From: Agarophyton chilense
Taxonomy: Eukaryota; Rhodophyta; Florideophyceae; Gracilariales; Gracilariaceae
NCBI GenBank assembly: GCA_030374765.1
Contig: JARGXX010000071.1
Location: 1,736,001-1,800,000 of the forward strand
DNA length: 64,000 nucleotides
Direction: 5' to 3'
A program made the translations under genes and the position numbers. Position 1 is the first letter of the stretch. Every line of letters begins with the position of its first letter. The notes under the pieces were generated by a model. It saw nothing but the letters and a program-made list of their open reading frames with translations, was not told the origin of the DNA and made no database searches. Positions 4,001 through 36,771 of this stretch are shown in pieces.

Positions 4001-5155
4001 ATGGATCCGAACGCCGGGTAAAACTCGTTTCAGCCCCCCTCTGAGGATCTGCCTTCTGGGGCTCCGTCCAACACTGCTGGTTCTGCATCGCAGCCTATTT
4101 CTTAACTCGGTTCATACCGTTCGTTCCCCACACCGTACACCGGATTCCGGTCTGTACCGTTACCTCAGCCACCCGTGGCTCCGATGCCGAACGCGGCTTA
4201 CGTCGCCTCTGTGGGTGTGCTTCGAGCTCCTTCTCGTCGTGCTCAGCGGAGCTACCCGCACCTGGCATATTTGGTGCCGTATAAAATGATCGAGATTGAC
4301 CGTATCCGGCGGAACGCGCGCTTCGAGCGCTATATCGGTATTCCGGAGCATTGGGCAGCGATTGAGAGTCCTCGTGGTTTCCCTGTGGAGCTCCCACCGG
4401 CGATCTCCTACATCGGGTCCGAGTTGGTCAACGACCCGTTCTTGGGATATTGGACGGTGGTCTATACCGAGTTTGTCGCCAAGATGGCCGTCTTCCTCCT
4501 GTAGGATGCTTATGATACCTTTAGAGTTTGGTACATGTCGCCCACAGCACGAAAGTATGCGAGAGAACTCGATCTTTCTCTTGTCCTGGGATCCCGTGCG
4601 AACCATGCCAACTTCCTCCATCTTGTGGATGTAATCGACAGTGTCGACTGGTCTGGACTGCCAGCTGATCAATCCGCTCGCGGAACCCGTGCAAAACACT
4701 ACGACCATTCTCCTGGACAAACAGCAAGTGCTGGAGATTTCGTTTGGTACGACTCCTGGACGCGCCAGTTGATCACCTCCGAACAGACTCGCTTTCTTCG
4801 GGAGAACCCGCGTGACATGCCAACAAACCAGCTTACTGGATACATGTACGATGCTACTCCATCCGAGAACGGAGAGGAACCGTATGAGAAAGCGCCGGGA
4901 GCTGAGGCTGAACTCGGTTACGAGGACGAGCCAGAGCTGGCAGGCGTAGCGACTTCCGTCGATCAATCCGCCGCGGCGGGAGTTGCTCAAGAGTACCTTC
5001 ATGGGTTTACCCAACAGCCGAGTGCAGTACCGGTCGAAGATCCAGGCTTGGATCCACTGAGGCAGTTCCTCTTAGATGCGGGCTTTCCCGTGGACCAAGT
5101 TGAGCGTGATTGCGCACAGCTTCTTGCCAACCTGCGTGCTCGCACGTCTCTTTGA
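4001..5155 (+). pseudogene. Antisense ORF of chromovirus G1 (env position, unknown function)
   Basis: From ATG 4001 one plus-strand frame runs 385 codons to TGA 5155, with only three internal stops (4019, a second near 4100, and TAG at 4502). About 18 stops would be expected by chance. It lies outside gag-pol, between the chromodomain (ends 5515) and the 3' LTR, and faces the opposite way. The N-terminus is Pro/Ser rich. A core around 4320-4500 contains YIGIPEHW and PPAISYIGSEL, which align without gaps to YVLRPDWW and PPVLAYFGSQI in the antisense frame of G2. The C-terminus is acidic. I do not recognise the family. A 284-codon open frame on the other strand (5014-4160) competes, but it lacks this pattern of conservative matches. 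Confidence 0.65.
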
Positions 5156-5224
5156 TGATCCTAGGAAAGACTCCTAGTCAACACCCTTGCGGTGGTATCT
5201 TGATACCAATAAAACCCCGGTGAC

Positions 5225-5412
5225 TTCGTGTCTTCACGTTCCCTTCTTATCTTCCAGTCTTCATCTCTTCTCGCTTCTCGAGTTCTTAACTTCTTCTTCT
5301 CGCTTCCCTAGTTTCATACTTCCCTTCTCGCTTCTCAAGTTCTTCAATCATCTCTTCTCGATTCTTGAGTTCTTCAATCCTTCTTCTCGCTTCTCGAGTT
5401 TTTTATAGGTGA
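5225..5412. repeat. Pyrimidine-rich tandem repeat in G1
   Basis: Repeated units of CTTCTCGCTTCTCGAGTTCTT-like sequence, of variable 35-45 bp spacing, lie just downstream of the antisense ORF stop. They sit between the two convergent coding units of the element, so they form the 3' untranslated region on both strands (purine-rich on the gag-pol strand). Confidence 0.75.
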
Positions 5413-5514
5413 TAATCAGTAAATTTCCTTTGCTTGCGTGTCTTCAAGTTTCCTCTTCATGATTTCTTGTTTTCTTCTCGCCTTTCGAGTTTTTACTACC
5501 TTTGTAGCCCATAC

Positions 5515-8500
5515 TTAGAAATGGGACGTGCCCATGAGCCCGACCATCGAGGAGTCGATCTCCCTGGGAAGTGGTAATCGCATGCGTCGATGATATCGCA
5601 CGAGTTGCGAACGGGGGATATCAGCTAAAGGTTCCCACGTATCCGCTTCCGGAGGAAAACCGTACCAACGGACTCGATACAGTAATTCTCTAGTATCTTC
5701 ATGCTCGCCATGTTCACATATGCGATCCATAACATATTCCTGGGCGTTCCCCAATGCTTTCGCTGTTGGCGCGAGACTCCTGTCAACAGGTTTGAAATGC
5801 CTTAGGGCTCACCCAAGCGTCTCTGTGTTAGCAGTCTCAGCGTCGCTAAGCGTTCGCTCGTCGACTCACTGTCGTTCTGCCTGCAGGAGCAGTGTACTCA
5901 TTCCTTGGGAACCTTTCCCAGATAAAGAGCTATCCTGTTTTCCAGGTTCCATAGAAGCGTACTTCTTCCTACTTCTCAATTCCATTCATGGATGAACTTC
6001 CTTTGGTTTATCCGATTCTGACCGCTGTTGGGTGGACGATGGTGCTTGCACCACGACAGGAGGCGATACCTCTTCTTCTTGCTGCCCACGAGGGATGGGA
6101 GCCGATATCAACGGAACAGCGAGTGGCGCATCACCTGACGGTTCAGTCTGAAGCGGCAACGGCGCGTGTTCGCGTGCACTCCTTTCCAAGTCCTTGGGGC
6201 CAAATTCCAAAACATATTTCCTGCTTTCAGGTTCCATTTCTGTACTTACAGGTGTGCGCGTGCCACGGGGCATATCCCGATACTTTGCAAGTTGTCCGTG
6301 ATTGGCGTACGCAACCGCCGGCGTTGGGAGATCAGGAGCTTTCTCCTCCGCTCGAGCCATTGGTGGCAGTTCGCTCTCCCCAGAGTCACTGGGACTTTTG
6401 CATTAACGTTCCGTCGCACTTGCCTCTTTAGTTCTACCAGATACCTGGACTTTCACTTGCGGGCCAGGCGCGACTTCAACGCGATCGCCCGATACACGTT
6501 CAACGTCCTCGCCTGTCTTGATGACCACTGTGTCTTCATCAAGGTCCACCACTTTGAAGGGTCCAGCCGCTATCGGCAACAACTTATGACGAGATTCTTC
6601 CTGTTTGTCCGGTCTTTCGATTCGTACGAAGACATGACCTCTTACTCGGATTGCTGGATTTCCTCTTCGCCTTCTGGCGTCATAGTTTCGCTTATAGCGA
6701 GCTTGCGTCTTTGTTAACTTTTCAGCGGCTTCTTCCGCTCTGGCCTTCAGGTCATTCCTCCATTTCAGATGGTACTTAGCCGGGGTCGGTGCGTCCAATT
6801 CTGTCTTGTCGTCGAGCGCAACCGGTAAACCCGGAGGTTTACGTGAGAGCACGAGGTCGAACGGTGCCGTCTTTTTATAGGTATGCACTTGCGTATTTTA
6901 CGCGTAGCACAGAGTATCTGTAAACATGTCCCATTCTTTCGGGTGGTCCGCGATGTAGTGTCGTTAGGCCGCTATCAGCGTGCGGTTGAAACGCTCCACC
7001 TGACGTTGCATTGCGGATGATAGGTCGTGGTAAAAACGTTTCGAATGGCCATAATGCGGCAAACATTCTGAAAGAACTTCGCAACGAATTGCTTCCCATT
7101 ATATGATAACAGAACTTCTGGTGGTCCGTATATAAATACCCAGTGTTTGATAAACGCCTGTGCGATTACGGTTGCGGTTATTCGCTTCAGCGGCACAGTC
7201 CGCATTAGCCTCGAGAAGCGGTCGGTGATTACCAATAGGTAGCGATAACCTCGCCTTGAGCGAATCAATTCCCCTGGGATGTCGATACTGACGTATTGTA
7301 AAGGCGCTTTCGCCTGGAATAACGTCATCGGTTTCCGCTTCCTGTAAAGCTTCATGCGATTCTTCGCACAGGTTGTACACAACCTCACTGTAGCATGGCA
7401 GTCCATTGCCAAAGTAGGCCAGTAAAAATCTCTTCTTAGATTCATGAACAACTTCGTTCCTCCTGGATGACCAGACAGCCTGCTGTAGTGTGCCAGATGG
7501 AGTACTCGACTCTTCAAGACGTGTGGAATCACGATTTGATCATGCTTTTCGACATGTCTTAACAGTATTCCTCGTGAATCGAGTGAAAAGGGGAGCTTCT
7601 CCCCCCCGTTAAGACGAGAGCGTATCGACGCACAAAACATATCGGCGTGATGATCATTGAGGAGCTCAGTACCCGAGATTCGCTTGAGTTGAACTGAAGG
7701 GTCAGTGTCTGCTAATGCAAGGAACGGGTCAGCATCCGAATTATCATCAAGGGTCTTTTTTTCCTTTTCTTCAAAAGATGGTAAATGGGTCTCCATGTAG
7801 AAGCAAGGTATCTCTTCATCGATTTCGCCTTGGGTTTCGCTCAGTGTTTTGAGTCACGATAGCGCGTCAGCTTGGACATTGGCCAATCCCTTCTTATACT
7901 TCACTTCGAAATCGAATTCAGAAAGGCGTAAGCGCCATCGTGTGAGACGATCAGACGGGTCTGTAATGGACAGTAACCATCGTAGAGACGAATGATCCGT
8001 GTTGACGGTAAAACGTTCTCCTTGGAGATACGGTCGCAATGTGGTTAGAGCCCAAACGACTGCGAGGCATTCCTTTTCTGAAACTGAATACTTCTTCTCA
8101 GCTGCGTTCAGCGATCTTGACCAGTAACCAATAAGTTTGCGTTCACCATCAGGGTGTGTTTGAAAAAGGGCACACCCTACTTGGTACTCGCTAGAGTCGG
8201 TATCCACTGAGTATGGCAGGTTGGGGATGGGCAGCGCCAAGACTGGGGCTGTAATAATCTTTGTCTTCAGCGTGTCTAACGCTTCCGCTTCAGCTTTTCT
8301 GAATTGTTCCAGCTGTACTGGTCGTCCTTTACGCAGCTTTGCGTTGAGCGGTGCCGCTATATGCGAGTATTGCGGCACGAATCGTCGGTAGACGTTGCAA
8401 AAGCCGAGGAAAGAACGCAATTGCTTCTGTGACGACGGAGGTTGTACTTCGCAGAGAGCCGCTGTTTGTGCCTCTTGAATGGCAAGCTGTCCCGGCTTGA

Positions 8501-10037
8501 CCACGTGTCCTAAGTACCGGACTGTGCCAGCGAATCATTCGCATTTCTTGAACTTCAAGGTGATACCTGCGCTCTGTAGTGCTTTGAGGATCTCCTCCAC
8601 ATGCCATAAATGGCTTTCCACATCCTGGGAAAAGATGATCACATCGTCCAAATAGACTAAACAAGTGTTCCACTTGTATCTTGAGAGCAAGATGTCCAGA
8701 GTACGCTGGAAAGTAGCCGGTGCATTCGTTAAGCCAAAGGGCATCCTTTTGAAACGGTAGAGACCAGCGTGACACGCAAATTCGGTTTTGTCTTGGTCTT
8801 CTTCCGCTACAGGCACCTGCCAATAGCCAGAGTTGGCGTCCAACGTGGTGAACACGTTCGCTTCTCCTAAGCTGTCAATACATTCGTCCATTCGAGGCAA
8901 CGGGTATGTATCCCGAACTGTAACTGCGTTCAGTTTTCGATATTCGATACAGAATCGTAAAGAACCATCAGGTTTCGGAACCAGCACCACTGGTGAGGCC
9001 CAAGCAGACTGAGCTGCTTCGATTACTTCTTCTTCCAGCATTTTGCTGACATTCTCCTTCTCGATTTGGCGAGTTCGTGGTCCCTCTCTGTAGGGTGGTT
9101 GGAAGATGGGTCGTGGCCCTGGGACCAAATCAATGTGGTGTTCCGTAGCGGAGATCTCTCCTAGTTTTCCACTCCACATGGATGTGTAATTCTTCAGCAT
9201 AGACCTGATATTCGTTCTGTAGGGTTCCGGCACATGTGCTAAGTCTAGCTCATCGACCAGGCTCTCTGGATCCTTTGCCGATTGCAATTGATCTCCAGAC
9301 GGAGTTTGCAGTTCTTCGTCCGTGTCACCGACATGGGTTAATCCCAATACTTCTGCAGTAGAAATATGAGTAGGGACCACCACTGTTGGATGAGGCAAAG
9401 CTGTTGCAACAACCTGATTCTTCGGTATCTGATAATCGTTATCGGTGAAGTTACTCACTAGTATCCGAAAGGGGCTACCAGGATCAACCTGAACAATGCC
9501 GTTAGCGACTAGCAATCCACGGGATTCGTACATCCGAGTATTTGGTTGAATTACCACGAGTCCGTGTCGTTCTGTTCTTACTTGAACCCAAGTTTGGGTT
9601 TGCGCCTTCAGCATGGCACTCTTCGCTACTCGAATCCTTTGCGAGACACCTCCTCGGGATTTCCCGTACTTCATAGATGGTGGAAGTGGAGGTGCTTCGG
9701 GACAACGACGCATTGGCTTGCGAACAATTGGTACCATTGATCCATCATCTAGTTCCACTATTCTTTTTCGCGGGCGAATGGCTTCGACAAACTTGTCGCA
9801 ATAATCACATCCCAGTACCACTGGTGCAGCTAACGTCTTACACACGATGAAGTAGACTAGGACTACAAAGCGTCCCAAACGCACCACGAGTCGAACTGTT
9901 CCCAGTGTCTTCAAAGCATTTTTGTTGGCATCCCGGATGTCCGGTAAAGGACCGTATCGAATACCTTCTAAGTCAGCAGGAGCGAGCTCCGATTCCCGTA
10001 TAAAGTTCGGACCAGCACCTGTGTCCAGGATAGTCAA
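5515..10037 (-). pseudogene. G1 pol: protease, reverse transcriptase, RNase H, integrase, chromodomain
   Basis: Protease active site LDTGAGPN is near 10025. Reverse transcriptase has SPVVLVPKPDGSLRFC and the YLDDV catalytic motif near 8650. After one TGA at 8535 the frame continues through the RT thumb and RNase H (TDSSEYQVG, EKECLAVVWA, TDHSSLRWL, ADALS then stop at 7854). Integrase follows with an HHCC zinc domain and VSIDIPG. The second catalytic Asp is Tyr (LSYNGKQF), and a one-base deletion near 6990 shifts the frame just before QVERFNRTL. The GPF module (AAGPFKVVDL) and a chromodomain (5754-5515, with YRVRWYGFPPEADTWEP) follow. The order RT-RNaseH-IN-chromodomain defines a Ty3/gypsy chromovirus. 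The copy is inactive. Confidence 0.95.
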
Positions 10038-10503
10038 TCAACGAGATAACAGAATCCTGTCAGAGCCGATGTCGGCGTAGACCTTATAGTTTCTTTTAGA
10101 CACTACCATGAGGTAACTTTCCCGTTTTGACAGACAAGTATGACGTTCCAAGGGCGATGTAACTCACAGTCAAACTGTACTCGCTTTCCGTCCGGCGGAT
10201 TGATTCCGTACGGCGGAAATTTCTGAGGTCTCAAGAGAATCTTGGGATTCCAAGCGCGGGAGCAGGGAGGCGAGCTCTCCCTGGTCAGCACTACGGGATC
10301 GAATAGTGCCGACCCCCTAGGGGCTCCCTCACTTAGTTTTCCGGTTGCACCGGCTTATTCGCCTCAAAGGCGCCTCTTCCTACTGGGGTTCCGGGTTGTA
10401 ACACTTCAGCATTCTGAGCAACCGGCTTGTCCGTCCGGCGCATTGGTGTCTGAGAAAATCAACTTTTGGCTTTCCAATACATGCCCGCCGGTACGCGGCT
10501 CCT

Positions 10504-12486
10504 TTACTCTTCTGAGAGTGCTTCATAATTCGTCATGATACGACTCAGGTCCTTTTCAGGAAGCGTGCATTCTGCACTCAAATGGTGTTTTCCATAAAAT
10601 GAATAACATATCAAACCGTCACGACGGTTGTTCAACGTAGAATGTGAACGGTATGCCGTGCGAGTATCCACCCATATGGGTTTCCCGTACTTAAAACCTC
10701 CTTGTGGAGGCACCGTTTAGGGAGGTTACATAGGGCGACGGCCCTCCATAGCCATTAGGGCTTCCTCGTCCTGAGACTTCGAGTGTGGGAGATCCACTGT
10801 AGGTACAGAAGAGTCCGTATATTCCATTAAATGGACCGCCTCCTGATGCAAATCACTCCCTTCGGGTGCCAACGACGAATCTCGTGAGTGCACTGGAGAT
10901 TCCAGATGTAGCAGTTTGCTGCGCTGATTAACTCTGGCGGAGATCTTCTCCTTACCCATTGAGGTTCCAAAAGTGACGGAACGACGGGGGCTACCACGCG
11001 CTCTGGCCGCGTCTCCTTCAGCTTTCGCAAACTGAACTAACTCCAAAAAAGAGACTCTTCCATGCTTCTCTCGATATCGAGCTACCAACGACTTGAAGCT
11101 CGAGTCTAGCCCGTGGATGTACAACGTAATCTTGTCCTCCGTCGAGTGGAAGTTTCCACAGCGGACTGAAGCTTTGTTAAGCCTTGAGCTGTACTCAGCT
11201 TCGCCCTCCTCAGGCTTTTGGGTCACATCCCTTAGGTCCAGAATCGCCTGACGTATCGCGTTTGATGTCGCGTAACTGCGCAGCAAATACTGCACCTTCT
11301 CTGGCCATGAGGTAACGCCGCCTTCATCGGCTGTCAATGATCCGCATACGGAACGATATTCCTCCAAAGCAAAACCCTTCAGGAAGTGTGGTAAATTCAC
11401 AAATGCCTGTGGTTCACTCATCTGTAGAGTGCCTGCTTCGGCAACGAATCGAGTGAGAAAATCGATAACGAGAATGGGGGTTATCCCATCAAGTGTTAAA
11501 TAACTAAGGCCGATCTTCAATCGTTTGATGTGATCCTTCACCTTCGCCGTTTCGCATCCCGAGTGCTTCTTGCTCTTCACCTTCAGACGGTAGTACCTGT
11601 AATTCAGGACCTTCCGATAAAGCGGATTAGTGCACGGGAGCACCTTCAATCCTCTGTAAGGTGAGCCTTTTTTTCTCATTAACCACGAAGACGTGTTCTT
11701 CTTCCGAGATCGGGACCTTCGATGACCATCATCACTGTCGTCGTCATCTGACGTATCTGAATCATCAGAATCATCAGTACTGGAACTGAAGCCCTCCGTA
11801 CTTGACGATTCATCACTCGAATTACGTGCGGACTTCTGCATCTAACGTCGTGACTTCAACTTCTTCGAACGAGCTTCCTTCAATGGAGCTCCTTCCTCTT
11901 CCAGCACGACTGGTTTAGCAGCAGTCTGCGCATGAACTGCCGCCTCCAGGCGTTCTAAACGAGCGTTAACTCGAGTGAGGACTTCCTCTACATCCACGGT
12001 TAAGCCTGGTAGCGCACCAGGCGTGTTCCCGTACCTCTCCAGTAGATGGTTCAAATCTTCACGTAGTGTTTTCACTGATGCAGAGACCTGCTTCCCATCG
12101 TCTTGACAAACGAGTGCTTGATGTGCACTGCGTAATTGTTTGACCTCAGCGATAAGAGCAGCGATCTGCGATTCCAACGCAACCATGCGCACACGCGAAG
12201 CGCTTGACTCAGACTTGAGACGACGCACTTCCCTGCGCAAATCATCCTCTTCTTGAGGTTCGACGACCTCAGGGTCAACTACGGCTTCTGTGGTGGGCTT
12301 GACTGCCGCTGCCACAGGGGCCGGTACATCCGAAAGATCTCGTTCGTCATTCACAGAGCGTGAGCGCCACATCGCTTGACGATACAGCCGCTCTCCGGCT
12401 TCAACAGATGAGGCGAGCCTCGGTTTCGGGGGTGGTCCCGCAGGACCGAGGCGACCATTACTCGACTGGCTTCGGGTCTTCGGCAT
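10504..12486 (-). pseudogene. G1 gag
   Basis: One minus frame begins at ATG 12486 (MPKTRSQSS). It gives an Arg/Pro-rich head, a coiled-coil segment and then an in-frame TAG at 11844-11842 immediately followed by ATG. The next segment (11841-10726) has a Ser/Asp-rich acidic tract and a capsid-like domain. After two stops near 10720 the same frame reaches a nucleocapsid zinc knuckle, CYSFYGKHHLSAEC near 10600. Its second Cys has become Phe (consensus CX2CX4HX4C). Parts resemble gag of G2, for example the YRYYRL/YRTYRL segment. Capsid-forming structural protein by family. This copy is broken. Confidence 0.85.
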
Positions 12487-12681
12487 CCTAGACCAAACCT
12501 GAGTCCAGTTGCGAACCAAATGGTGTCTTCAAGTTCTCGACCACGTGTTCAACCACGATGAATTCCGCAATTGCCGGAGGTGGTTCAATAAAAAATAACT
12601 GTAGTGATTCCACTTCTTCCAAGTATCGATATCGATTCCACGTTCCAGGAACGAATTGTTCAGTGCTGCTGACCGCAGTGG

Positions 12682-12699
12682 TTCTAAGTCGGGAGACCA
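12682..12699 (-). other. Primer-binding-site-like sequence of G1
   Basis: Two bases inside the 5' LTR, the minus strand reads TGGTCTCCCGACTTAGAA, starting with the TGG expected to pair with a tRNA CCA end. The same sequence with two changes lies at the corresponding place in G2 (27137-27154), which supports its function. I could not assign the tRNA. Confidence 0.65.
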
Positions 12700-12701
12700 C
12701 T

Positions 12702-13368
12702 TGAAGTATCCGCTCTAACGGAGAGAGCAGACACCTGCGACAGCGTTCGGACTGCCGATGGGTCGCTTGCGGCGAAGAAAAAGGGGTGGTACAGCTACAA
12801 CACCAGCCAGCCGGAAGTGGGGTGTAAGGCCACTACTCGCCAGCGAGGGTGAACAGTGCAACTGTAAAACGTTGATGGGACGTAAATACGAGACGGCTCG
12901 TGAAGTGGTTGGGGGCTGACTATCTATTATAGCTCGTCCGGAGCTCCGGTTAAGGAATCCTAAGCGAGGAACAGAATAGTCATGATGCCCATGTTGTCTC
13001 CTTTACTTGGAGTCGGCGCTCACCTCTGGTACACTATATACTGTGTGCCAGGGTGAGTGCCCAAATAAATATATAAATAATGCCCAGTGGTCAGCCACTT
13101 AGACAAACCACTGTATGGGTATGGTCCCTAATGGACGTCTAGCTACAAAGGGTACTAAAACCAGCCACATGGATCGCCACTACATGCGCCGTTGCAAGCC
13201 ATTCCACTCTTGATTCCACGTGTTCCACTAATGTACCCTGCCTCCTGGCATCCTACGCGGTGTGCCGTTTCATATCAAAAGTTTGATGACGTCACCCACT
13301 TATGAGTTCCACCAGCGACTTCGCGAAAAATCATCCAAACAGATTCCCCGACATAGTAGAATACTACA
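12702..13368 (-). repeat. 5' LTR of G1
   Basis: A 667-bp direct repeat of 3169-3832, with one mismatch in the terminal inverted repeat (TGAAGTAT instead of TGTAGTAT). Its AT-rich run AAATAAATATATAAATAATG near 13065 is the best TATA-like candidate for the gag-pol promoter. Confidence 0.95.
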
Positions 13369-14008
13369 AAATCCAATCTTCTTTTTGTCGCCAAGTTCAT
13401 TGCGCAAATCTCTCAGGCTCTCTATCCTCGCGCTTTTCCTCGAGTTCCATTCTACGTTTCTTGATCGCGCATCACTCATCGCCCTGAGCCAGCATGATGG
13501 CAGCAAATTCGTCGTCTGAGTGCGACTTTTCGCGCGGTCAGTGCTTCTTCTTTTTAGCGAAACTTCAAGTAGATTCTTCATCTCTTTCCTAGTCCGGGCG
13601 ACTTGAAGCCATTCTTTTTAACGCCAAAATGCGTATTCCGTCTTCAGCTTCCACCGAACGCTGCCCGAGTTGAGTGCTATCATCTTTTACTGCCCCAAAA
13701 GTCTCCTCTTCTTTCTAAGTTGCCACTGTAGGTGAGATCGTGTTTAGGATAGTAGTTGCCATCAGGGCTGGATAAGAGGTGTTACGGTGATGGAGAGGGT
13801 GGTAGTGTGTCACTTTAGGTTCGTGATGCTCCACAGCATCAAAAGTGGCACGGCAAAGCATACGAATTTTACTTCGTATAGAGCGCCTAGTGTACTAAGT
13901 TTCATGAGTAATTTTCGTACGTTTTTCGTCCACGGTTTTCAAACTGTGCAACGTGTCCAATTTGTAATAGGATATAACGAAAATCGTACGAGAATCGATA
14001 CGGCGTAA
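13369..14008. other. Unassigned decayed sequence right of G1
   Basis: The minus strand holds short Lys/Arg/Glu-rich frames (13581-13369), e.g. KKRRMELEEKREDRE, of the charged coiled-coil kind seen in many transposon accessory ORFs. They are cut by the LTR boundary. Further right, AATTTTCGTACG and CGTACGATTTT-like inverted copies occur near 13910 and 13985. Nothing further is supportable. Confidence 0.35.
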
Positions 14009-14150
14009 ACCCTCCTATAAAGGTTATGTTTTTGAAAGTCTTTTTACTTCAAATTTTTGTCACACTGATTTCCTTAGCTTTACAGTAGCCAAAACGTCAC
14101 TTTTCGGAGATTCTGGGCGTGAGATATGATTTTGAAACAGATTACTTAGA
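14009..14150 (+). mobile_element. 3' end fragment of a Tc1/mariner element
   Basis: The sequence from ATAAAGGTTATG to GATATGATTTTGAAACAGA repeats the last 140 bp of Tc1 copy B (15400-15527). No transposase precedes it. It is a truncated relic lying about 75 bp upstream of the full-length copy. Confidence 0.8.
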
Positions 14151-14225
14151 ATGCGAAGCGTTGTAGTTCGAGAGTAGGAGCAGTCCCTGTAGTCAATGAG
14201 AGGAAATGCCATACCTACCGAAATA

Positions 14226-15525: not shown

Positions 15526-15910
15526 TACTTTTCGAAATACTTACCGAACTGTACTTGCCAAAACCACTATTCTCTTCCAGAGACCAACCTTCTACCGAGA
15601 GCGAAGAGACGCTCTCCCCAAAGCTTTGCTTCATTCCACCGCACGCCTTTCGTAACTTGATTGTACACATCACGCGTGCGGCAAGCACAAACCTCTTCGA
15701 CGCCTTGAATTGCCTATGTCGCGGGCGGCGGCTGCCGCAATTGTCACTCGTCACAACGATGAACGTCACTCTAAAATGACGTCACTATGCAGCGATTTTA
15801 CTCTGTAGCTAGCATTCTATGCTCGAAAATCAACACACTTTACCAAACTCGTTGACGTGCTAGCTGTTCCATTCACACACCCCACCGCCTATTATGTCAA
15901 AGATCTCTTT
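15526..15910. other. Intergenic, nothing assigned
   Basis: 385 bp between Tc1 copy B and the 3' end of the amine oxidase gene. No convincing coding sequence or repeat is seen. Confidence 0.5.
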
Positions 15911-25352: not shown

Positions 25353-25781
25353 GCAGATGGAACAAAAGCAAGGAACAGAAAACGCAATAATGGTCGACGG
25401 AGAGTTGGATTTGCTGGCAATGTCCAATAAAGAGAGCCTTCTGACATCTTCTTTTGAATTTAGTGCTCTACGACAAGATCTTATAGACGGTCTCCGAGAA
25501 AGAACTCGAAGATGAAGGTAGTAGCAATAAAGAGGGATCCTTTGAAGTAGTGTTACTAAAGGGATATCTTTCATCACTTCGCTTAGCTTCTGGCGAAGTA
25601 GTTTTTTTTCGACCGAGAGTTATGGGACATTGGGTCCCAAGACGTCCGAGACGCCTTGGCTTGTTTCTTTCCCACAGTCCTTGGCGCGAATTTGTGCTTA
25701 CCGTGGATGCAGAAGCTGAAGTTGCTGAGCAGATTGTACATGTCGAAGAGAAATAAGCTACAGTCCTATACTCTGCAGTAC
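25353..25781. other. Space between convergent Harbinger genes
   Basis: Contains degenerate continuation of the transposase 3' region and no convincing separate gene. Confidence 0.4.
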
Positions 25782-26525: not shown

Positions 26526-27133
26526 TGTCGTATAATGGCAGAAGGTTTGACATTTGAGGTTGTCGATATACTACACTGACCTTGTAGGTGATGTATGCAA
26601 GGGATCATCGGCCACGCAGCTCCGGGCGAGCTACCATCTAAATGTTGTCAGCCACGTGTAGTGTTGACATGTACCTTCTGGTTGAATGATTGTTAGTAAT
26701 TGTAATTGTAATTATATTTATTTTAGTACAGTAGTGGAGTGGCCACCTGGAACTGTAGCCAGTGCTGGCCAGGTCTCTGACACTAGGTCAGAGACCGTGC
26801 CTTGCTGGCAGCTCCCGGATGATCTGGAGAGTGCAGTCCACTGCATACAGGGAACTGCACCTCCTCCACCCTAGTCTGATAAATGAGGCACCACTTGGGT
26901 CACAACTATACCTTTTGGTTCATTGTTTCTCAACTACCACATAGGTTTTACCGCGTGTCGACGCCTACCATCGTTCACCTACATGGTATAGGCTGGTTGC
27001 TCCGCCGTTTGCCCCTGCGGGTTTTCACGGTGCCCTGTTACCATCGAGGTTTATTACGTCTACCTTCTAAGGTTGAGCGTCACCACGCTCCCGAGACAAG
27101 ACAGTAGCAGACCCCAGAGGTGATTGAACGACA
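26526..27133 (+). repeat. 5' LTR of G2
   Basis: Starts TGTCGTATAATGG and ends ...ACGACA. It matches 37786-38418 at a constant offset of 11260 bp over more than 500 bp with very few changes. It contains a TATATTTA-type sequence near 26707 and a perfect 10-bp inverted repeat at 26772-26796. Confidence 0.93.
26772..26796. repeat. Perfect hairpin in the G2 LTR
   Basis: GGTCTCTGAC and GTCAGAGACC form a 10-bp perfect stem with a 5-base loop. The same sequence occurs at 38032-38056 in the other LTR. It lies shortly downstream of the TATA-like sequence, so it could be in the transcript leader. Confidence 0.7.
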
Positions 27134-27136
27134 TTT

Positions 27137-27154
27137 TGGTCTCGGGACTTAGAA
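27137..27154 (+). other. Primer-binding-site-like sequence of G2
   Basis: TGGTCTCGGGACTTAGAA begins 3 bases after the LTR. It equals the G1 site except for two central bases. Confidence 0.65.
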
Positions 27155-27280
27155 AGTTTTTTTGGGTTTCGTCGTACCTTCACGGTTCGCACGAGATTCC
27201 GAGAAGTATTGGACGCTCGTACACCTATTTGGTTTCAGGAACTCCCGCAAAGCAATACAGGATACCACTATTGGTCACAA

Positions 27281-29489
27281 ATGGAACGACCTAAAAGGAA
27301 TACGCGTGGTGCAAGCGCCCCGCCAAGCCATAAAGGTTTTAAAGGAGCCCCATCGGCTCAACCGATTCTGGAGAACCCCGAGGAGCTGCTCCGGCACCCT
27401 CAGGACAAAACCGTAAAGGTACATGGTCCGCCGCCTATGGCAAAAGAACCTCAAAGGAAAGTACCAATTGAGGTTGCAGCGGAGGAGCTATGGCCTCAGA
27501 TCGAAGAGCGAGCGAAAGCGCTCGTCACCCTCGCGGTCGAGGATGCATTAACCTTAAAGGGAAAGTCGGATACCCGGATGGTTCCGCCCTCAATGGACGT
27601 CGGTGCATTTTCCCGTATTGTGGTTGACCGAGCAGCTCAAGAACTATCAAACTGGATACCTGAAATTGTGAAACAGCATCTTTTTACAGATGCTAGGGAG
27701 CATGTTTACGGCGCTTTGCAGGACCTTTGGCTTTCCGAGGGATTCGCAGAATCCCGACCTGCACAGGTGATCATCGCAAAGCGGATACCACAAGGGTTCC
27801 AAATGGGTCATTCCACCCATGCGAAACACTTACCGACTGATAGTGAGTACCTACAAGGTTCAAAGCAGAGTCAAGAGGTCCCTGGGAAGGTAGATCCTCA
27901 AGACATTTATCTGCCACTAATTACTGGTTTCGTTCAAAAGGATACCCATGGAGGTGGTCCCAAGGACGATTCGTTCGACTCGTTGGATGAGCGACGAAGA
28001 AACCGAAAAGGTAAGAAGCGGAGGACGAAGAGCGGAAAGAATCGGGTAAATGATTCAGACCCAGACTCGTCAGACTCCAGTTCCGATACGAGTTCATCGT
28101 CGGATGATGACCGTAAAGGTAAGAAAAAGAAGAAACCGAACAGGTCGACGAAGAAGTCGTCGAAAAAGAACCGAAAAGGTAAGAAGCGATACAATGAGCC
28201 GTCCGACTCTGAGTCGGACACCGAAATGGACCTGGAGGTGCACCAAGCGTTGAACGATATGTTCACCAAAGCGGTTGATTACAGGACCTATCGGTTGATC
28301 AACAAGTCGTCTGAATACACCCAAGAGGTTGCTCAGAAGATTACTAAGCACCACAAGAAGCTCAGCTTCCAAATGGGTGACACAACCTTCACAGGTACGG
28401 ATCCTATTGCGGTGATTGAGTTTCTACAGAAGTTCAAGCTTGCATGTGACCAAAATGGGTTTTCCGAGGGCACTGCTATGTGGCAATTTCAGTTTACCTT
28501 AAAGGACAAGCATACTTCTTGCTGCAGGGTAGGCTCCGCGGCAATACCTTAGCGGTGGATGAGGATGGCACAGAGATGTTGGAGTCATACCCAGAAGTGG
28601 TCAATTTCCTTTTGAAAACATACGCCACCGATGAGGTAATCCAAGAGGCTTATTCGGAAGTCCTCGCTTACCGTCAAAGGTCTGGGCAAACCAAATCGGA
28701 GTTTTCGCTCGCGCTGTGGAATATGGGAACCCGTTGAGGTAATGTGTTCACTACCTCTAGGTTAGAGTCGCTATTTGCCGACAATGTCGACAAAGCGATC
28801 CGTTCCCAGGTACACAATTACCTGGCCACTAACCGAAAGATAGACTACAATGGGCTGGCTCGATACGCCCAGGGCCTTGGAGATACCCTACGGCTGGAAA
28901 AGAGACCAGCCGTGCTTCCAACCTCGAAGGATAAATCGAAAAGGTCTGTCTTGGAAATTGAAGACACCAAAACCTCAGAGGGCAGCTCGCACATCTAAGT
29001 ACCTACAGGGACCGCTATCCACTTGGTAGCAACCCAGGGGCGGTTCTCGAAACCTTCGAAGGTAGAAAATTGGTCATCAACGAGTACAACACACTCGGTA
29101 CAATCGCCTCCAAGGGGGATGAGCTCGCAGAGGATGCCTGGAGCGAGCTCCCATAACTCGCCGCCCACATCCTACGCCACTGCTCCTACCAACCAGGTTT
29201 CGAAGCCCTCCTAAACGGTAACGCGAGACCCCCAAACTGGAGGCCTCGTTTGCTGGTTTTGTCTCGCGACAGACCATTTGGCAAACAGTTGCGCTCACTT
29301 ACCTCCAGGAATGAGAGACCAGTTGATTCAGGGTCGCATGCAGAGTCACCAACGCCTCTATGGGTCTTCAACGCAAGCACCAAATAGGTTTCAACCCCGT
29401 ACACCGGTACAGGTCAATACCGTCGAGGAAACACCAAACTTGGACTCAACCCCTCCCGTACAGGAGGAAAACACCGAACGGTTGGCGTA
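27281..29489 (+). pseudogene. G2 gag
   Basis: ATG 27281 (MERPKRNTR) opens a frame to 28552. It has a Pro-rich head, helical capsid-like segments, and a long Lys/Arg and Ser/Asp-rich tract (27970-28240). A +/-1 shift near 28500 continues the capsid domain (LLQGRLRGNTLAVDEDG) to a stop at 28737 and then to 28998. After a further break, the nucleocapsid zinc knuckle CWFCLATDHLANSC (CX2CX4HX4C, intact) lies at 29251-29292, in frame with a tail to 29490. It resembles G1 gag in layout. Here the coiled-coil/head and capsid are in one frame, without the in-frame TAG seen in G1. Confidence 0.85.
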
Positions 29490-32400
29490 ATGGCCGAACC
29501 CAACCTTCAATTGGAAGGCCAATCGATACCCAGAACCTTGAACGTGGAAGAGAACACGTCACACCCAGTTCCGGTTTGTCTTATGAAGGACAGCAACTAT
29601 AAAGTACGTGCTTCCATGTGTTTCTCCGATTGCCTTGCGGTTCCGGTCACCTTGGTGTTGAATACGGGGGCCGGCCCAAACGTTCTGAACTCCCGCATCA
29701 TACCTGAGGCGGTACTTCGGAACTTGAGCCGACCTCCCGACAACAACCCGCTGGTGGATGCAAATGAGCGCTCATTAAACCTTCGAGGTATGCTCACCAT
29801 TGTGGTGCAGCTCGAACACCTCAAAGTAAGACTGAAATTCGTTGTTGTCGACCGTTTACCGGCAGACTGCCTACTAGGTACGAACTTCATTGACAGACAT
29901 GCCCAAGCAATCCTTCCTGGTTCGCGTACTGTCGCCCTACGTCACGGGGGACGAATTGCCATTTTAGATAACACGGAAACCAAACGGGGACGGTTCGTCA
30001 AACCGAAAAAGACGATATCCACCGAAACGGTCTCCAACAAAGTGCGCATTACCAAACAGGTTGTTATCCCGCCAATGCACCAAATATTGGTACCGGTGTC
30101 GTGTGCGACCCCCGGGCTGGTCTTACTACAAAACCATCCGAGGTTAGCACATCGACACCTCATCTTGATGGCCAATGGGATTGTCGACAACATCCCAAAT
30201 CAACCCTTTAAGGTGTGTCTCAGTAACTTCAGCACTCACGACGTGAAGTTGCCGAAAAATACCAACGTTGGCATCGCACTACCGGCACCACAAGGCGTCG
30301 TCACCGTAGCTCACACTGATCTCGGCGAGGTCGCCTTCGATAAGGAAGGGGGGTGCGCAAATGCGTCCACAACCACAAAGGTATCGATAAAGACCAACCT
30401 GGAATTAAAGCTAACCGATAACGAATCGGTAGACAGAGAAGAAGAACCTGAATCTGAGAGACAATGGCAAGATACAGTCCAGATCGGTGACGAAAACGAC
30501 GAACTGCGGGGCCGTATTCTCGACCTTCTGGAGGAGTTCGAAACCATGTGGTCAAGCCATCTGGGCCAAATTAAGGCCACACAGCATCACATCGAGCTCC
30601 TCTCTGACTCGAAGCCGATTTATCAGCAACCATACCGTACAGGTCCGAAGGCGAGAGAAGTAGAACTCAAAGAAGTGAAGCGAATGCTCCAAGAAGGTGT
30701 AATTGAACCAGCCAACTCAGATTGGGCTAGTCCTGTGGTTCTGGTTCAGAAGAAAGGTGTAGTATTCTACTATGTCGGGGAATCCGATGGGTTGGTTTTT
30801 CGCGAAGTCGCGGTTGGAACTCATAATTGAGTGATATCATCAGCATTGTGCTATGAGACGGCACACCGCGTAGTATGCCAGGAGGCAGAGTACAGTGTTG
30901 GGACATGTGATATCACGAGTGGAGTGGCTTGCAACGGTGCATGTAGTGGCGATCCACGTGGCCGGTTTTTCTACCCTTTGTATCTAGACGTCCATTAGGG
31001 ACCATACCCCTACAGTGGTTTGGATAAGTGGCTGACCACTGGGCATTATTTATATATTTATTTGGGCACTCACCCTTGCACACAGTATATAGTGTACCAG
31101 AGGTGAGCGCCGACTCCAAGTAAAGGAGACAACATGGGCATCATGACTATTCTGTTCCTCGCTTAGGATTCCTTAACCGGAGATACCGACGAGCTATAAT
31201 AGATAGTCAGCCCCCAACCACTTCACGAGCCGTCTCGTACCTACGTCCCATCAACGATTTACAGTTGCACTGTTCACCCTCGCTGGCGAGTAGTGGCCTT
31301 ACACCCCACTTCCAGCTCGCTGGTGTTGTAGCTCTACCACCCCTTTTCCTTCGCCGCAAGCGACCCATCGGCAGTCCGAACGCTGTCGCAGGTGTCTGCT
31401 CTCTCCGTTAGAGCGGATACTACAAAAAGGGATAACCGTATGAGGTTCTGTGGGGATTACAGAAGGCTCAATAGCGTGACCGTCAGGGATTCGTACCCGA
31501 TACCTAGAATGGATGAGTGCATCGACTCTTTGGGAGATGCGCAGATATATACCACGTTGGATGCCAATTGTGGTTATTGGCACGTACCTGTAGGTGAGTG
31601 AGATCGAGACAAAACGACCTTCACGTTCCATGCAGGTTTGTTTCGCTTCACGCGGATGCCATTCGGGTTGCGCAATACTCCAGCCACCTTTCAAAGGGCG
31701 CTGGACATCATCCTTTCGAAGGCTAAATGGACAACCGCTTTGGTATACATCGATGATGTAATCATCTACGCCAGATCGGTAGAAGAGAATTTTGCACACG
31801 TACGCACCGTACTAACCCTCCTAGCTGAGGCGAGGATAACGCTGAAGCTACGCAAATGCGTCTTCTTTACCAGAACGTTTGAATACCTAGGCCACATCAT
31901 AGGCCCTAGTGCTCTAGAAGTTGCGCCGAGCAACATTAGAGCCGTTCAGGAGGTCAAGTTGCCACGATCCCAGACAGACGTACGATCCTTTATAGGTTTA
32001 TGCAACGTGTATCGTCGCTTCGTGAAGGGATTCGCAAAAATAGCGGCTCCTCTCAACAAGAAGCTCCAGAAAGGTGAACCTGAACGATTTGAGAATCTAT
32101 CGAACGACGAAATGGATACCTTTGACGAATTGAAACGAGGGCTGTTGTCGCCGCCTATCTTAGCGTTACCGAAAACAGGTCTACCGTACACGCTGGATAC
32201 GAATGCATCCCATGCCCAAATTGATTGTTGTCTCATGCAGGAGCAGCACAACTGAGACAAATTACCTATCGGGTACTGGAGCCGCGCTATGAATGAGGCG
32301 GAGCAGAACTACACGGTAACCGTGGAGGAATGTCTAGCAGTAGTGTGGAGCATGTTGATGCTCCGTCCATACCTATATGGTGAGCGATTTACGTTGCGCA

Positions 32401-34451
32401 CGGACCGCGACGCCTTAAGATGGATACTCGGACTTGCAGATGCCTCTGGTAGACCTGACCGTTGGAGGTTGAGACTTTCGGACTTTGAATACGACGTGCA
32501 GTACCTTCCAGGTATCAAGCACATCATAGCTGATGCTATATCACGCTTAAACACCTCAGGGTTAGAGACAGAACCTGTGTACGATGATATCCCTAGCTTT
32601 GTGGTCTCATCAGACCAAAATGGTACCGGCGAACACCCAGAAGGATGTCGGGACTTCCCTGCAGAAGGTGCCTTGCGGAACACCGACATGGCCACGCAGA
32701 TACTGACCCTAGAGTAAACGAGCGTCATGCCCGTAACCCGAGAGGAATTTCTACGAAAACAGGCCCAGGATGCGTACTGCAGAACCCTGGCTGACCAAAT
32801 TGGTTTCAAAGGATCACCGTTCGACGTGGACCACAGTGGGTACATCGTGAGAAAGTCAACCTAGGATGGTAGCCTTCAAAAGGTGGTTCCGAAGGCACTG
32901 CGCCCGAGAGTCTTGTATCTCGCGCACTACCCGCGACTATCGGGACACCCCGGTGCCACCAGGATGTATTACACCTTGAGGCAACAGTTCTATTGGCCTC
33001 ATATGGCCCATGATGTCTATACCTTTGTAGGTCAATTCGAATCTTGTGTTCGTACCCGCAGTGGTATTAGAAAGCATCGAAAGTACCTCAAGCTGTTTCC
33101 AGCAGTGGGTCCACTGGAGTTTGTTGCGATAGACCTTCTAGGACGACTTCCCAAAACCAAGAATGGGTATCAACATATTCTACTGATCACCGACAGGGTT
33201 TCGAAGATCACGAGAGCGATACCTTTAAAGGAGACGAAGTCAACCACGCTGGCGATCGCGTTCCTCAACAATTGGGTCTACCCGTATGATGCACCACTGT
33301 ACCTACTTACCAATAATGGTTCAAACTTTGCATCTAAGTTCTTCGAAGCAGTCTGTAACCTATTGGGTATTAAGCACTATTTCACTACGGCCTACCACCC
33401 GCAGACGAACGGACAGGTCGAGCGCTTTAACCACACATTGGTATCAAGGCTACGACACTATACGGAAGAGCACCAAACTGGGTGGGATGAGCTGGTGCAA
33501 CCACTCACCTACTCCTATAACCTTCAGGTACACCGGTCAACACAGACCACTCCCTTTGATTTGGTTCTTTCGCGACACCCCCCAAGTATTGTAGTGCAGG
33601 GAAATCATACCACCAGCACTGCAGCTGGCGCACTGACCCCTGCCCAGCTCAAGCGGAATACCCTTGTGAGGTTGAGGAGGGCTCTCAAACATGCAGAGAG
33701 CCGCCTCACTGCAGCCCAGAAGCGGTACAAGGCCGACTACGACCGTAGGGTAACCAAAGTGGTCTCTGTATCTTCGGGACAATATGTCTACATAGACAAC
33801 CCACCTTCAGGTAGAAAACCACGACCTCGTGATGAAGCAGACGATGAAGCTATTGACAGAGATATCAATTCGAAGCTTCTACCCAAATCAGTGGGACCTT
33901 ATAAGAAATTGAACGCATAAGACCACACCGTTACAGTTGAACAAGATGGAATACCGAATACGATATCAATTGACCGTATTACGGTAGCACCTGAAACGGT
34001 TCAACATCGCATTGAGGCAGGCACCTCAACCCGAGAGCGCAGAGCTGTAGCTCTGTGCAGTAGACCCTCGGAGGACCCCACCCCCATTGAGGTTAACGAT
34101 GACCTTCAACGTGATGATCTGGATTACAACCCTCTAACAGGGACGGAAATTGAACCTCAAACGGTAAAAGTGGGAGCTCCCGACCTGGCTCCCGCAACCG
34201 AAGCTCTCAACTCGGAACATATGAACCCTCGAGTTAGCGCTTCCCCGTAAGATCAGTACCAAACCTCAGAGAAATTTCTCGTTGACCGTCTTGTGGGCCA
34301 CACGCGAACGTACAATGATCTGAAATACACAGTCAGGTGGTACGGCTGGGGCCCAGAAGGGGACACCCTCGAACCCCCAGCCGCAATATCCCCACACTTC
34401 CGTATTAGGTATTGGCGCCGTCGCAAGGAGCCGATGCCTGCAGACGGCTAA
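29490..34451 (+). pseudogene. G2 pol: protease, reverse transcriptase, RNase H, integrase, chromodomain
   Basis: The protease active-site Asp is replaced (LNTGAGPN near 29660). Reverse transcriptase starts near 30540 and has SDWASPVVLVQKK. It is then cut at 30758-31424 by a solo LTR. It resumes at RMRFCGDYRRLN, with YIDDVIIY near 31746. TGA stops occur at 31599 and 32253. RNase H shows DTNASHAQI, EECLAVVW, TDRDALRW and ADAISR. Integrase (32883-33920) keeps VAIDLLG and QVERFNHTL, but its second catalytic Asp is Asn (LTNNGSNF) and one zinc Cys is lost (FESCVRTR). After GPY (SVGPYKKLN) and more stops, a chromodomain lies at 34262-34440 (KYTVRWYGWGPEGDTLEP). Chromovirus order; inactive copy. Confidence 0.93.
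30758..31424 (+). mobile_element. Solo LTR of the G1 family inside G2 reverse transcriptase
   Basis: 667 bp from TGTAGTATTC to GGATACTACA, the reverse complement of the G1 LTRs as they lie on the plus strand. It is flanked by A/G-rich AAAGG-type pentamers consistent with a 5-bp duplication. It is closer in its AT-rich run to the LTR at 12702 than to that at 3169. Solo LTRs arise by recombination between the two LTRs of an inserted element, so a full G1-family element once sat here. Confidence 0.93.
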
Positions 34452-34773
34452 CCTTAGACCCTCGTGGTACTCAGGCCTAAGGAAGGGGGAGAAAAGACGT
34501 CGTTTTCGGCACGAGGTGGACGCATATGTGTGTCAGATTACCTACATGGGAGGACACGAAAGAACAACCAAATGTAACAGTAGAGGAGACAAGAAGAGAC
34601 AACAATTGGCTTTAAGAAGGACCTGTCGGCTAAGGAGCTTTGGGATCGGGAGGACCCGTTTTATTGACTACCCACAAAGTAAAACTGGCAGGAATGCTAG
34701 GAGCCATTGACATAGGAGGTAGCGAAGGAGCGGTAGCCCCGCCATTGGGGAGAGGAGTCCAAACCAACATAGG

Positions 34774-36771
34774 TTAAACGGGAGGAACCGCCGGAGCGGG
34801 TTGCAAAACCGCAGGGTTTGAGTTAGCACCTAGAAGGGGATCCGTCAAAGGATCTGATGGCGCAGCAGCAGAGACGATCGCCAGATTGGCCACCTGACGG
34901 GTGGCCAGTTGGTACATGTCCAACTGGAACTGATTCCGGAACTCACCAAGTTGGTTCAGCGCCTTCATGTGTTGCGCATGGCGTGGCAGCAAACCTTCAA
35001 GGAGCGTTAATGCAGCAACCATGGAGGTAGGCCCAGTCCTCGGAAAGTTGGGGACTCAAGACTGGCGAATTCGAGCCAGCAAACCGACCACGGCCGGAGA
35101 ATCCATCATAGGTTGAGGCGGAGGACGAGCAATACCCGCCAACAGAGGTTGAACCGGACCAGAAACCCGCGAGGAGCTCGGTTGACTAGGAGTCACACCC
35201 GTAGGGGTAGGCGGCTTATGACCTTGAGGTAACGCCTCGGACGGGAAGGGACCAGCATAACGACCAACAGGTGTCTCCACACTACCTTGATAAGGTTCGG
35301 GGCTCGCGGGAGCTCTATGAACAGGAGGCTCCCCGGGATAATATTGGGCGTGGCGAGGCAATATCTCCCAAGTTGCCGGATCAAAAGCCTCCCAACCTTA
35401 ATGGGAATCCCAATGGTAATTCTCGCTCTGCTCGAGATACGAGTCCAAATCCTTCACGGTATAATCGGTCCCCTGAACGATGTTCTTGTAACCAAATCGG
35501 AGAATATCCTGGGCAACCCTCGGAGGTATGAAGAAGATGCGACCTACAGGTTGAACATCATCTCGGTATATGTCAGAGTCGGGATTACGACAATCCCAAT
35601 CGATACCGTAACGGGCGGCCTCCAGAGCCAGGATGGCAACCAACACGGTCCACTCCGAAAAGGTAATCGACCAAATAAGGTAATACCGTTCCAGGTTCCG
35701 AGAGATCTGACTCCCGAAGTACGCCAAAACCGGCGGAGTGGGCACGCTCAGCGACCACAGAACCTCATAGGACTCCCACCAATCTGGTCGAAGCACGTAC
35801 CAATCTCGTCTGTCCTTCGTAGGTTGTGAAAAGTACTCGACATTATGAAACATATGCATGACGCGAGTGTAAGAGTTGCGAGTGCGAACGCGACTCTCCG
35901 TTGCTGCATCCTCGCCCCACCTACTACGGTCAGTCCAATTGATAGTGGTGAAAGGCCGATTCAGGGAAAACAAGTCAGGTGAAACCGGAAGGTAAGTTTC
36001 CGGAATATACGGGTACTGGCACACTCGCACCACCAATCGATGGTAATAATCCAGCTCCGGTTCGATGCGCACATACAGCATGTCGCTCGGATACATCGGC
36101 GGGATGGAATACCTCAAAGTTGTATGACACTGCCGACTCTGGTAACATTGCATTCGACCCTGACGAGGTTGAGACTCTTGGTCCCTTCTCTCCAAAAGCA
36201 ATGGGACGGAGAGAAGGCGTTCGCAGTCCCAACGGGACAAACCCAAGTAGGTATCCAATTTTGGTCTGGTAAGAGCTGCCGGCAATGACCAATTCCCCAC
36301 CGCCACAGGCCAATTGTGCTTCAACAGGTCACTGTGAGTCACCTGGTCGAAGGCAACACCAAAAGGTCCATACTGATTCGTCTTCCGGTTCGCCGTACTA
36401 AACACGGGATTATGAGCCCAATTGGTTTGTGTTTTCGAAGGAAGTCCATCGCTGTGTTGGGATGGGTCAGCCAAAGTCCCAGGGGAGAACTGTGTCGCAG
36501 GGACAGGCACGCTGCGAAAACCAATGTTGGTAGGCGTTCGAGAAGCCGAGCGAGTCACCCTCTTGGTAATACCCCCGCGTCTACGGCCACAAGATGGACC
36601 GCTACCGGGCATGGTTGGGAAGGCCGTAACTCGACCCGACGAACGAGGTGATGACTCGACCTCCACCGCCGCGGTGAACACCAGCGGGTATTCATCCTTC
36701 TGAAGTGGAGCTTCCTCGGTCCGTTCTGAGAAGACGGCCAACGTATCCTACATTTCCGGTACTCCCGACAT
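34774..36771 (-). pseudogene. Antisense ORF of chromovirus G2 (env position, unknown function)
   Basis: From ATG 36771 (MSGVPEM) a single minus frame runs 666 codons to TAA at 34774. There are only three internal stops (36748, 35398, 35056), and 447 codons are uninterrupted (36741-35398). It lies between the chromodomain and the 3' LTR and does not overlap pol. The N-terminal part is basic and Ser/Pro rich. The middle is rich in Trp, Tyr and Pro, with a core near 35690-35800 (YVLRPDWWESYE, then PPVLAYFGSQI). This aligns gap-free with the antisense frame of G1: 10 of 33 positions are identical and most others similar. The C-terminal 200 codons are Pro-rich and then helical. No known domain is recognised. 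A retroviral envelope is unlikely because no signal peptide or membrane anchor is evident. Confidence 0.7.

Follow-up and report, generated by a model that had tools for sequence, protein, structure and literature searches.

Introduction

Descriptions of antisense genes in LTR elements come chiefly from the Tat elements of flowering plants and from a few retroviruses. The available parts of two accounts deal with those of plant Tat elements (PMC11963269) and of retroviruses (PMC10186651). In the Retand/Tat elements of the Ty3/gypsy group, antisense ORFs lie between pol and the 3′ LTR and are conserved across families, their function being given as unproven in that part of the source (PMC11963269). 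HBZ of HTLV-1, which is expressed antisense from the 3′ LTR, is located in the nucleus and reduces the activity of the LTR (PMC10186651, available part). LTR elements of bdelloid rotifers carry ORF3 genes (env, GDSL and DEDDy) that are located downstream of pol, kept by families and expressed through spliced messages, according to the accessible portion of the source (PMC5408684).

The present study concerns a stretch of 64,000 nucleotides from the red alga Agarophyton chilense (hereafter, the window), in which an earlier note, made from the letters alone, had described two divergent chromoviruses, G1 and G2. The elements resemble chromoviruses in gag, in the order reverse transcriptase–RNase H–integrase–chromodomain and in their LTRs; to our knowledge, the standard chromovirus layout does not include an antisense gene.

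Results

Two chromoviruses with decayed antisense genes

The G1 element (3169–13368), identified by its LTR pair with Pfam domains inside, carries gag-pol on the minus strand. Its 5′ LTR (12702–13368) and 3′ LTR (3169–3832), both on the minus strand, are 93.1% identical and enclose, on the same strand, gag (10726–11841; Retrotrans_gag, E 3.4e-7), reverse transcriptase (8535–10037; RVT_1, E 7e-31), RNase H (7854–8504; RT_RNaseH, E 2.8e-35), integrase (6975–7796; Integrase_H2C2 and rve) and a chromodomain (5560–5733; PF00385, E 5.7e-9, above the cut-off). The G2 element (26526–38418), with gag-pol on the plus strand, is bounded by plus-strand 5′ and 3′ LTRs of 93.8% identity (26526–27133 and 37786–38418). 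Its plus-strand features comprise a protease region (29490–30830; gag-asp_proteas, under the curated cut-off), the 3′ part of reverse transcriptase with the start of RNase H (31638–32255), integrase (32883–33920; Integrase_H2C2 and rve) and a chromodomain (34275–34442). A G1-type LTR (30758–31425, no strand assigned), a 93% inverted match to 12701–13368, lies within G2 between protease and reverse transcriptase. PF00385 was above the cut-off in the window's G1 and in copies of two further families, G3 (L075) and G4 (L079), and below it in G2 copy L012, where the stretch corresponding to the window's chromodomain matched at E 0.014. Both window elements have, between their LTRs, the reverse transcriptase–RNase H–integrase order of chromoviruses and a chromodomain C-terminal to the integrase.

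Each element also carries, as the earlier note had claimed, a long frame on the opposite strand between the chromodomain and the 3′ LTR, and the chromodomain positions place both frames outside pol. The gene of G1 (4001–5155, plus strand) starts just inside the edge of the 3′ LTR, with its ATG at 4001, 168 nt inside that edge. The window holds a decayed copy with internal stops at 4019, 4103 and 4502, a terminal stop at 5153 and an in-frame deletion of 528 nt (176 codons) near 4268–4272, at whose junction two BLAST matches share 5 nt. In other G1 copies, about 560 codons are open counting from this ATG, which is codon 52 of a whole frame of 611 codons. The G2 copy, likewise decayed (34774–36771, minus strand), is interrupted by stops at 36750, 35400 and 35058 and ends with a stop at 34776. 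It is frameshifted beyond 36771–34774, so that straight reading from 37139 meets 19 stops in 841 codons; some other G2 copies are open across 839–842 codons, corresponding to approximately 34615–37139 in the window.

Stops in both frames are far below chance, in line with what had been noted earlier: three internal stops each, versus 15.5 expected in G1 (binomial p 1.2e-4) and 26.7 in G2 (p 5.7e-9) from the window's own stop rate over all frames. The same deficit was observed across copies. G1 copies had on average 1.35 stops in 611 codons (12 of 40 being stop-free), versus 9.8–30.2 in the other five frames, and G2 copies 2.05 stops in 839 codons (4/22 stop-free), versus 19–35.5; in G4, 54 of the 77 scored matches were stop-free. 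Furthermore, in one open copy per family, the longest open frames of 611, 839 and 640 codons compared with maxima of 309, 297 and 350 codons, respectively, in 300 shuffles each.

Purifying selection on the antisense frame

The earlier note had proposed that purifying selection be compared between the antisense and sense frames, and this comparison favoured the antisense frame. Between G1 and G3, the net dN/dS of the gene frame was 0.135 (0.093–0.184), versus 1.48, 0.28 and 2.12 for frames read in the sense direction; the remaining two antisense frames gave 1.65 and 1.80. By block, dN/dS was 3.29 over codons 1–50, 0.02–0.32 over codons 51–600 and 1.11 over the last 11 codons, showing that constraint in G1 sets in at about the ATG (codon 52) and that codons 1–50 are relaxed.

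Within G2, the ratio of nonsynonymous to synonymous variants (N/S) in the gene frame was 2.54 in singletons vs 1.60 in shared variants (p 8e-5). N/S dropped in the wobble-facing sense frame too (p 0.018), which we read as a shadow of the antisense gene. The G1 family alone gave no selection signal in the gene frame in the same comparison of shared with singleton variants (p 0.30). A p value of 0.043 for antisense frame 1 in G1 polymorphism, one of six frames, was treated as noise.

A frame of this kind could itself be a coding shadow of selection on the sense strand, or open by chance under no selection, and several G1 copies do have a 271-codon open sense frame opposite the core of the antisense protein, while the sense dN/dS of 0.28 is low. 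However, the 271-codon frame, whose codon borders are those of the antisense frame, is the one with a net dN/dS of 1.48, and the frame with 0.28 is wobble-facing and contains about 30 stops per copy. Relatives of the protein at 29–90% identity are, moreover, present as predicted proteins. The numbers of stops compared with the remaining five frames, the shuffles and dN/dS rule this reading out with near certainty. There is good support for a genuine gene here, one whose encoded protein is maintained in sequence by selection.

Four families and relatives in other Gracilariaceae

Together with G3 and G4 of the same genome, the gene is located between the chromodomain and the 3′ LTR, on the opposite strand, in four families. 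Among 60 loci searched, two lacked a chromodomain match, and in all 58 loci having one the gene was on the strand opposite the chromodomain. The orientation of G4 was judged by the chromodomain, the integrase-zinc-finger coordinates having missed the integrase of the G4 copies compared. The window LTRs were matched at 40/40 G1, 9/10 G2, 3/6 G3 and 0/4 G4 loci, the G4 LTR being a different sequence.

The earlier note had aligned the G1 and G2 cores without gaps, and this shared core proved real, with 10 identities in the 30 residues compared. BLASTP linked G1 to G2 weakly (E 0.046), and comparison of profile with profile gave a probability of 93.3% (score 65.2), rising to 95.6% (score 75.8) when G4 was added, against a best score of 24.1 among 40 column-shuffled control profiles and a score of 20.4 with the reversed one. 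The G2 type is remote, and its N-terminal part is different.

Relatives were found in Agarophyton chilense, Gracilariopsis chorda and further contigs; viral and prokaryote collections, searched with one pattern each, yielded none. The description of the gene as conserved and red algal is accordingly supported by the four families and by the relatives in other Gracilariaceae. In the gene tree, sequences of two or more genera are interleaved, as would be expected of an old element gene. This interleaving and the identical position and orientation across the four families speak against a captured fragment of a host gene, carried as a passenger or serving the host, a reading that we regard as very improbable even though two Gracilariopsis chorda relatives are annotated hypothetical proteins on long contigs.

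A protein with a helical core of no recognised family

No Pfam family matched the antisense protein above its cut-off, and comparisons with PDB sequences and predicted folds gave no match of weight. In 13 family proteins searched with hmmscan (eight at E up to 1, five at E up to 0.1), neither TRP28 (PF04195) nor bZIP was matched. Four weak hits were dismissed. Proline dipeptidase (E 0.025) covered residues 52–196 of P0001, N-terminal to the core, and the others were DNA gyrase B (E 0.54), E3_binding (E 0.24) and Ish1 (E 0.09). Of ten C-terminal pieces, in which a motif of two helices is predicted, two gave weak matches to Ish1, a motif of the HeH/SAP type, with E values of 0.0034 and 0.029 and scores (15.2 and 18.1 bits) under the curated cut-off of 26.6, and two others weakly matched effector-associated domains. 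As the searches linked its product to neither a known family nor a solved structure, this looks like an undescribed accessory gene, a possibility raised in the earlier note, and no description was found in the literature searched.

The model of the core (pLDDT 79.4, pTM 0.80) is largely helical and matched no nucleic-acid-binding fold, and no viral fold in BFVD (best E 5.5). Among 36 nearly invariant columns, six are Arg and three Glu, and none is His, Cys, Asp, Lys or Ser. Acidic residues exceed basic ones in 22 of 25 proteins, one is even and two, of G2 type, are basic. Basic clusters (5 of 8 residues) occur in 3/13 sequences, and a clear nuclear signal is absent.

One core helix is hydrophobic, with a 19-residue mean above the usual membrane limit of 1.6 in eight of nine G2-type sequences (1.75–2.47); an initial reading from 13 sequences that transmembrane segments are absent was withdrawn after this wider set. 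The helix may contact a membrane, chiefly in G2. A membrane-associated antisense protein would have a precedent in HIV-1 ASP, an antisense product that occurs at the surface (PMC10186651, available part), and the gene occupies the position of env. However, the helix is above the limit in only 3/23 G1-type sequences and below it in the other 20 and in G4 (0.93), and the models show it as a long, confident helix of the core, as might be expected if it were buried. Furthermore, env is sense-coded, whereas this gene lies on the opposite strand, and no env family or fold was matched. We regard a protein similar to ASP or to Env as improbable.

Discussion

The best reading of these comparisons is that the antisense gene is like those of Retand or HBZ in layout and unrelated to them by sequence. 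With the Retand/Tat gene it shares great length, an orientation antisense to gag-pol and a place between pol and the 3′ LTR; those elements, however, are non-chromoviruses of flowering plants, whereas the red algal elements have chromodomains. With HBZ/APH of HTLV-type deltaretroviruses it shares antisense reading, but size and core are unlike, the host here is a retrotransposon and the 3′ LTR promoter is inferred. The rotifer ORF3 genes are likewise extra genes downstream of pol retained by families; they differ in their env or enzymatic domains, none of which was matched in the red algal protein, and in expression through spliced messages.

We propose, at roughly even odds, that the chromovirus lineage of Gracilariaceae inherited an antisense accessory gene that makes its elements ambisense and whose protein regulates the element. 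A separate mRNA would be driven by an antisense promoter located within or adjacent to the 3′ LTR; antisense output would need the 3′ LTR alone and could thus be produced apart from the gag-pol transcript. The protein would have a disordered N-terminus rich in Ser and Pro, followed by one core of some 370 residues, for the most part helical, and by a short motif of two helices at the C-terminus. It may be an intracellular, probably nuclear, binding protein, as suggested by Arg and Glu being the only nearly invariant charged residues. The function of the product is an inference; by analogy with HBZ of HTLV-1, or with what has been proposed for the Retand antisense proteins, it may tune expression or silencing of the element. 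Several observations weigh against this proposal: the missing nuclear signal, the predominance of acidic residues, a core that matched no nucleic-acid-binding fold, the hydrophobic helix, the G1 family's lack of a selection signal when taken alone and the remoteness of the G2 type.

Two other functions have to be weighed. Proteins coded by elements and acting against silencing are known from plants. By this precedent, the protein may block or remove small-RNA or chromatin silencing by the host instead of tuning LTR activity itself; retention of the gene in several multi-copy families and invariant residues that are not enzyme-like, and so fit a binding role, are consistent with this. We nevertheless consider it unlikely, as no silencing suppressor was matched by sequence or fold and a transcript running antisense to gag-pol would in itself favour the formation of double-stranded RNA. 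Alternatively, the largely helical core and the presence of the gene in all four families examined, as for a replication gene, could indicate a structural or replication helper of Gag, integrase or the particle that is antisense by historical accident. Antisense coding would, however, split such a gene from the packaged gag-pol messenger, and the BFVD comparison matched no viral fold, making a helper quite doubtful.

Returning to a regulator of the element, we tentatively extend the proposal, at slightly less than even odds, to red algal chromoviruses as ambisense elements with a third, antisense-transcribed gene of unrecognised fold, which would predate the split between Gracilariopsis and Gracilaria/Agarophyton, act in trans on the expression or silencing of its family and be an independent counterpart of HBZ and the Retand antisense proteins. 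Red algal chromoviruses would add to plant Tat elements and retroviruses a third case of antisense genes, one in which purifying selection is strong and the searches made recognised neither a domain nor a fold. A third case suggests that retroelements have repeatedly arrived at ambisense coding as a solution, and the role of antisense genes becomes testable in a lineage with many naturally open copies.

Results

Two LTR elements, both Ty3/gypsy chromoviruses, lie in the window: G1 (3169-13368, minus strand) and G2 (26526-38418, plus strand). G1 encodes gag, RT, RNase H and integrase, followed by a chromodomain (5733-5560); G2 has a protease region, RT and integrase, and its chromodomain ends at 34442. 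The long opposite-strand frame that the earlier note had placed between chromodomain and 3' LTR in both elements (4001-5155 in G1; 36771-34774 in G2) was recovered at those positions with three internal stops in each, and the window's G1 copy of the gene lacks 528 nt, lost in frame. Both insertions look old, because identity within the LTR pairs is only 93.1% (G1) and 93.8% (G2). A G1-type LTR within G2, between protease and RT (30758-31425; 93% to 12701-13368), suggests that a G1-type element inserted later than G2. No target-site duplication was obvious by eye in the outer flanks of G1 (3140-3169 and 13368-13400), and its two LTRs may thus derive from different insertions. Another repeat family, present as pieces with 76-94% similarity (959-2269, 14037-15530, 24365-24664 and 41928-43228), flanks G1 and reappears inverted beyond G2. 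Two minus-strand frames were also observed: 1366 codons at 15911-20011, of which the last ~580 residues are an amine oxidase and the first ~780 had no Pfam match at E 0.001, and a single open frame at 59763-61133 that encodes both a DNA photolyase N-terminal domain and an alpha/beta hydrolase domain, representing either two genes joined by read-through or a fusion of an unusual kind.

Searches of the same genome (79.8 Mb) scored at least 40 G1 matches among 402 first-look candidates and at least 94 G2 matches among 1470; alignments were built from 40 copies of G1 and 22 of G2, in each case counting the one in the window. The G1 antisense frame (611 codons) averaged 1.35 stops, with 12 of 40 copies stop-free, against means of 9.8 to 30.2 in the other five frames; the G2 frame (839 codons) averaged 2.05, with 4 of 22 stop-free, against 19.0 to 35.5. 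Naturally open copies supplied the reference (L021 for G1, L012 for G2), which biases the comparison somewhat toward the antisense frame, but the contrast is too large to be explained by this. On contigs C5, C49 and C78 (G000), matches to the integrase zinc finger are repeated at constant intervals (9,734 bases on C5 and C78, 6,523 on C49), as in head-to-tail retroelement arrays or assembly repeats.

Two further families carry the gene. G3, older than G1 and found via a stray match adjoining one G1 copy, encodes a protein that shares 59-67% identity with that of G1 where matches are longest, falling to ~50% for the copies that are most broken up. G4, uncovered with a Gracilariopsis chorda relative as query, gave at least 77 scored matches among 1823 first-look candidates, 54 of the 77 being stop-free by manual count, with frames of 640-650 codons at the four loci read. 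Wherever detected, the chromodomain lay on the strand opposite the gene (G1 40/40, G2 10/10 omitting 12 loci trimmed to the gene, G3 4/4, G4 4/4); no chromodomain was matched at two of the six G3 loci. Two matches on contig C99 (639750-640925 and 657762-658937), with identical scores and 38% to the protein query P0015, above the other matches listed, perhaps represent a fifth family.

G1 copies are too alike to be testable by themselves: N/S of shared and singleton variants differed insignificantly (p 0.30), nor was the codon phase of variants significant (p 0.15). The conservation proposed earlier was borne out when dN/dS was computed by frame between families, using 12 of 39 G1 copies drawn at random and 6 G3 copies, with within-family differences subtracted. 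Net dN was 0.209 and dS 1.544 in the antisense frame (ratio 0.135; bootstrap 0.093-0.184), against ratios of 1.48, 0.28 and 2.12 in the sense frames; values from all 39 G1 copies agreed, the other two antisense frames then giving 1.65 and 1.80. Selection on the sense frame at 0.28 was rejected, this frame being a shadow, because its third positions lie opposite those of the antisense gene and G1 copies have ~30 stops each in it. Along the gene, the G1-G3 ratio was 3.29 in codons 1-50, 0.32 in codons 51-100, between 0.02 and 0.20 from there to codon 600, and 1.11 in the last 11 codons; codon 52 is the ATG at 4001, the start given in the earlier note. In G2, N/S was 1.60 for shared variants and 2.54 for singletons (p 8e-5), and variants in at least five copies numbered 15, 17 and 46 at codon positions 1, 2 and 3 (p 9e-6), polymorphism p-values being optimistic as the copies are related to one another.

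Relatives were searched with at most ~8,000 candidates scored in each search. The G2-type protein (P0001) found at least one, in Agarophyton chilense; the G1-type protein (P0002) at least 12, comprising six from A. chilense, one from G. chorda and five on other contigs; and a nine-member profile at least 16, ten of them new. Identity to G1 ranged from 29 to 90%. Because the G1 and G4 types each had a separate G. chorda relative in a 22-sequence tree, the gene appears, barring horizontal transfer, to have formed two or more lineages before these genera split. G1 and G2 proteins matched weakly by BLASTP (E 0.046); profile comparison gave a probability of 93.3% (score 65.2), and 95.6% (75.8) with G4 added, against control scores of at most 24.1 in 40 column-shuffled profiles and 20.4 in a reversed one. 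Searches of IMG/VR and prokaryote genomes with one pattern each yielded no relative. These results suggest that the host alga most likely belongs to the Gracilariaceae.

Discussion

We show that the gene is protein-coding, antisense and conserved. Chromoviruses occur in red algae (PMC3605345), and the accessible text on Gracilaria names transposable elements, LTR elements not among them (PMC12502185). The term 'antisense' is absent from PMC2864245 and PMC6431247, and we found no published account of the gene, most subscription papers, preprints and Repbase lying beyond the reach of the search. Retand elements carry antisense genes with TRP28, whose function is called unknown, a parallel in that both are antisense genes in LTR elements (PMC11963269); antisense genes are likewise described for retroviruses, HTLV resembling the algal elements in having a gene that is read antisense (PMC10186651).

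The G1 ATG lies 168 nt from the LTR edge (3832), which would place the start of the antisense mRNA within the 3' LTR or immediately inward of this repeat. That no catalytic residues are conserved suggests a binding protein and, together with the parallels with Retand and HTLV, makes our favoured reading a protein regulating how its own element is expressed or silenced; we give this about an even chance. A counter-silencing factor is unlikely, and a helper of the particle slightly more so. A hydrophobic helix makes the regulator, and slightly also the ambisense proposal below, less likely and a membrane protein more likely, the latter nevertheless being quite improbable. Somewhat short of an even prospect, we propose that these are ambisense red algal chromoviruses, whose antisense protein may act in trans on element expression or silencing.
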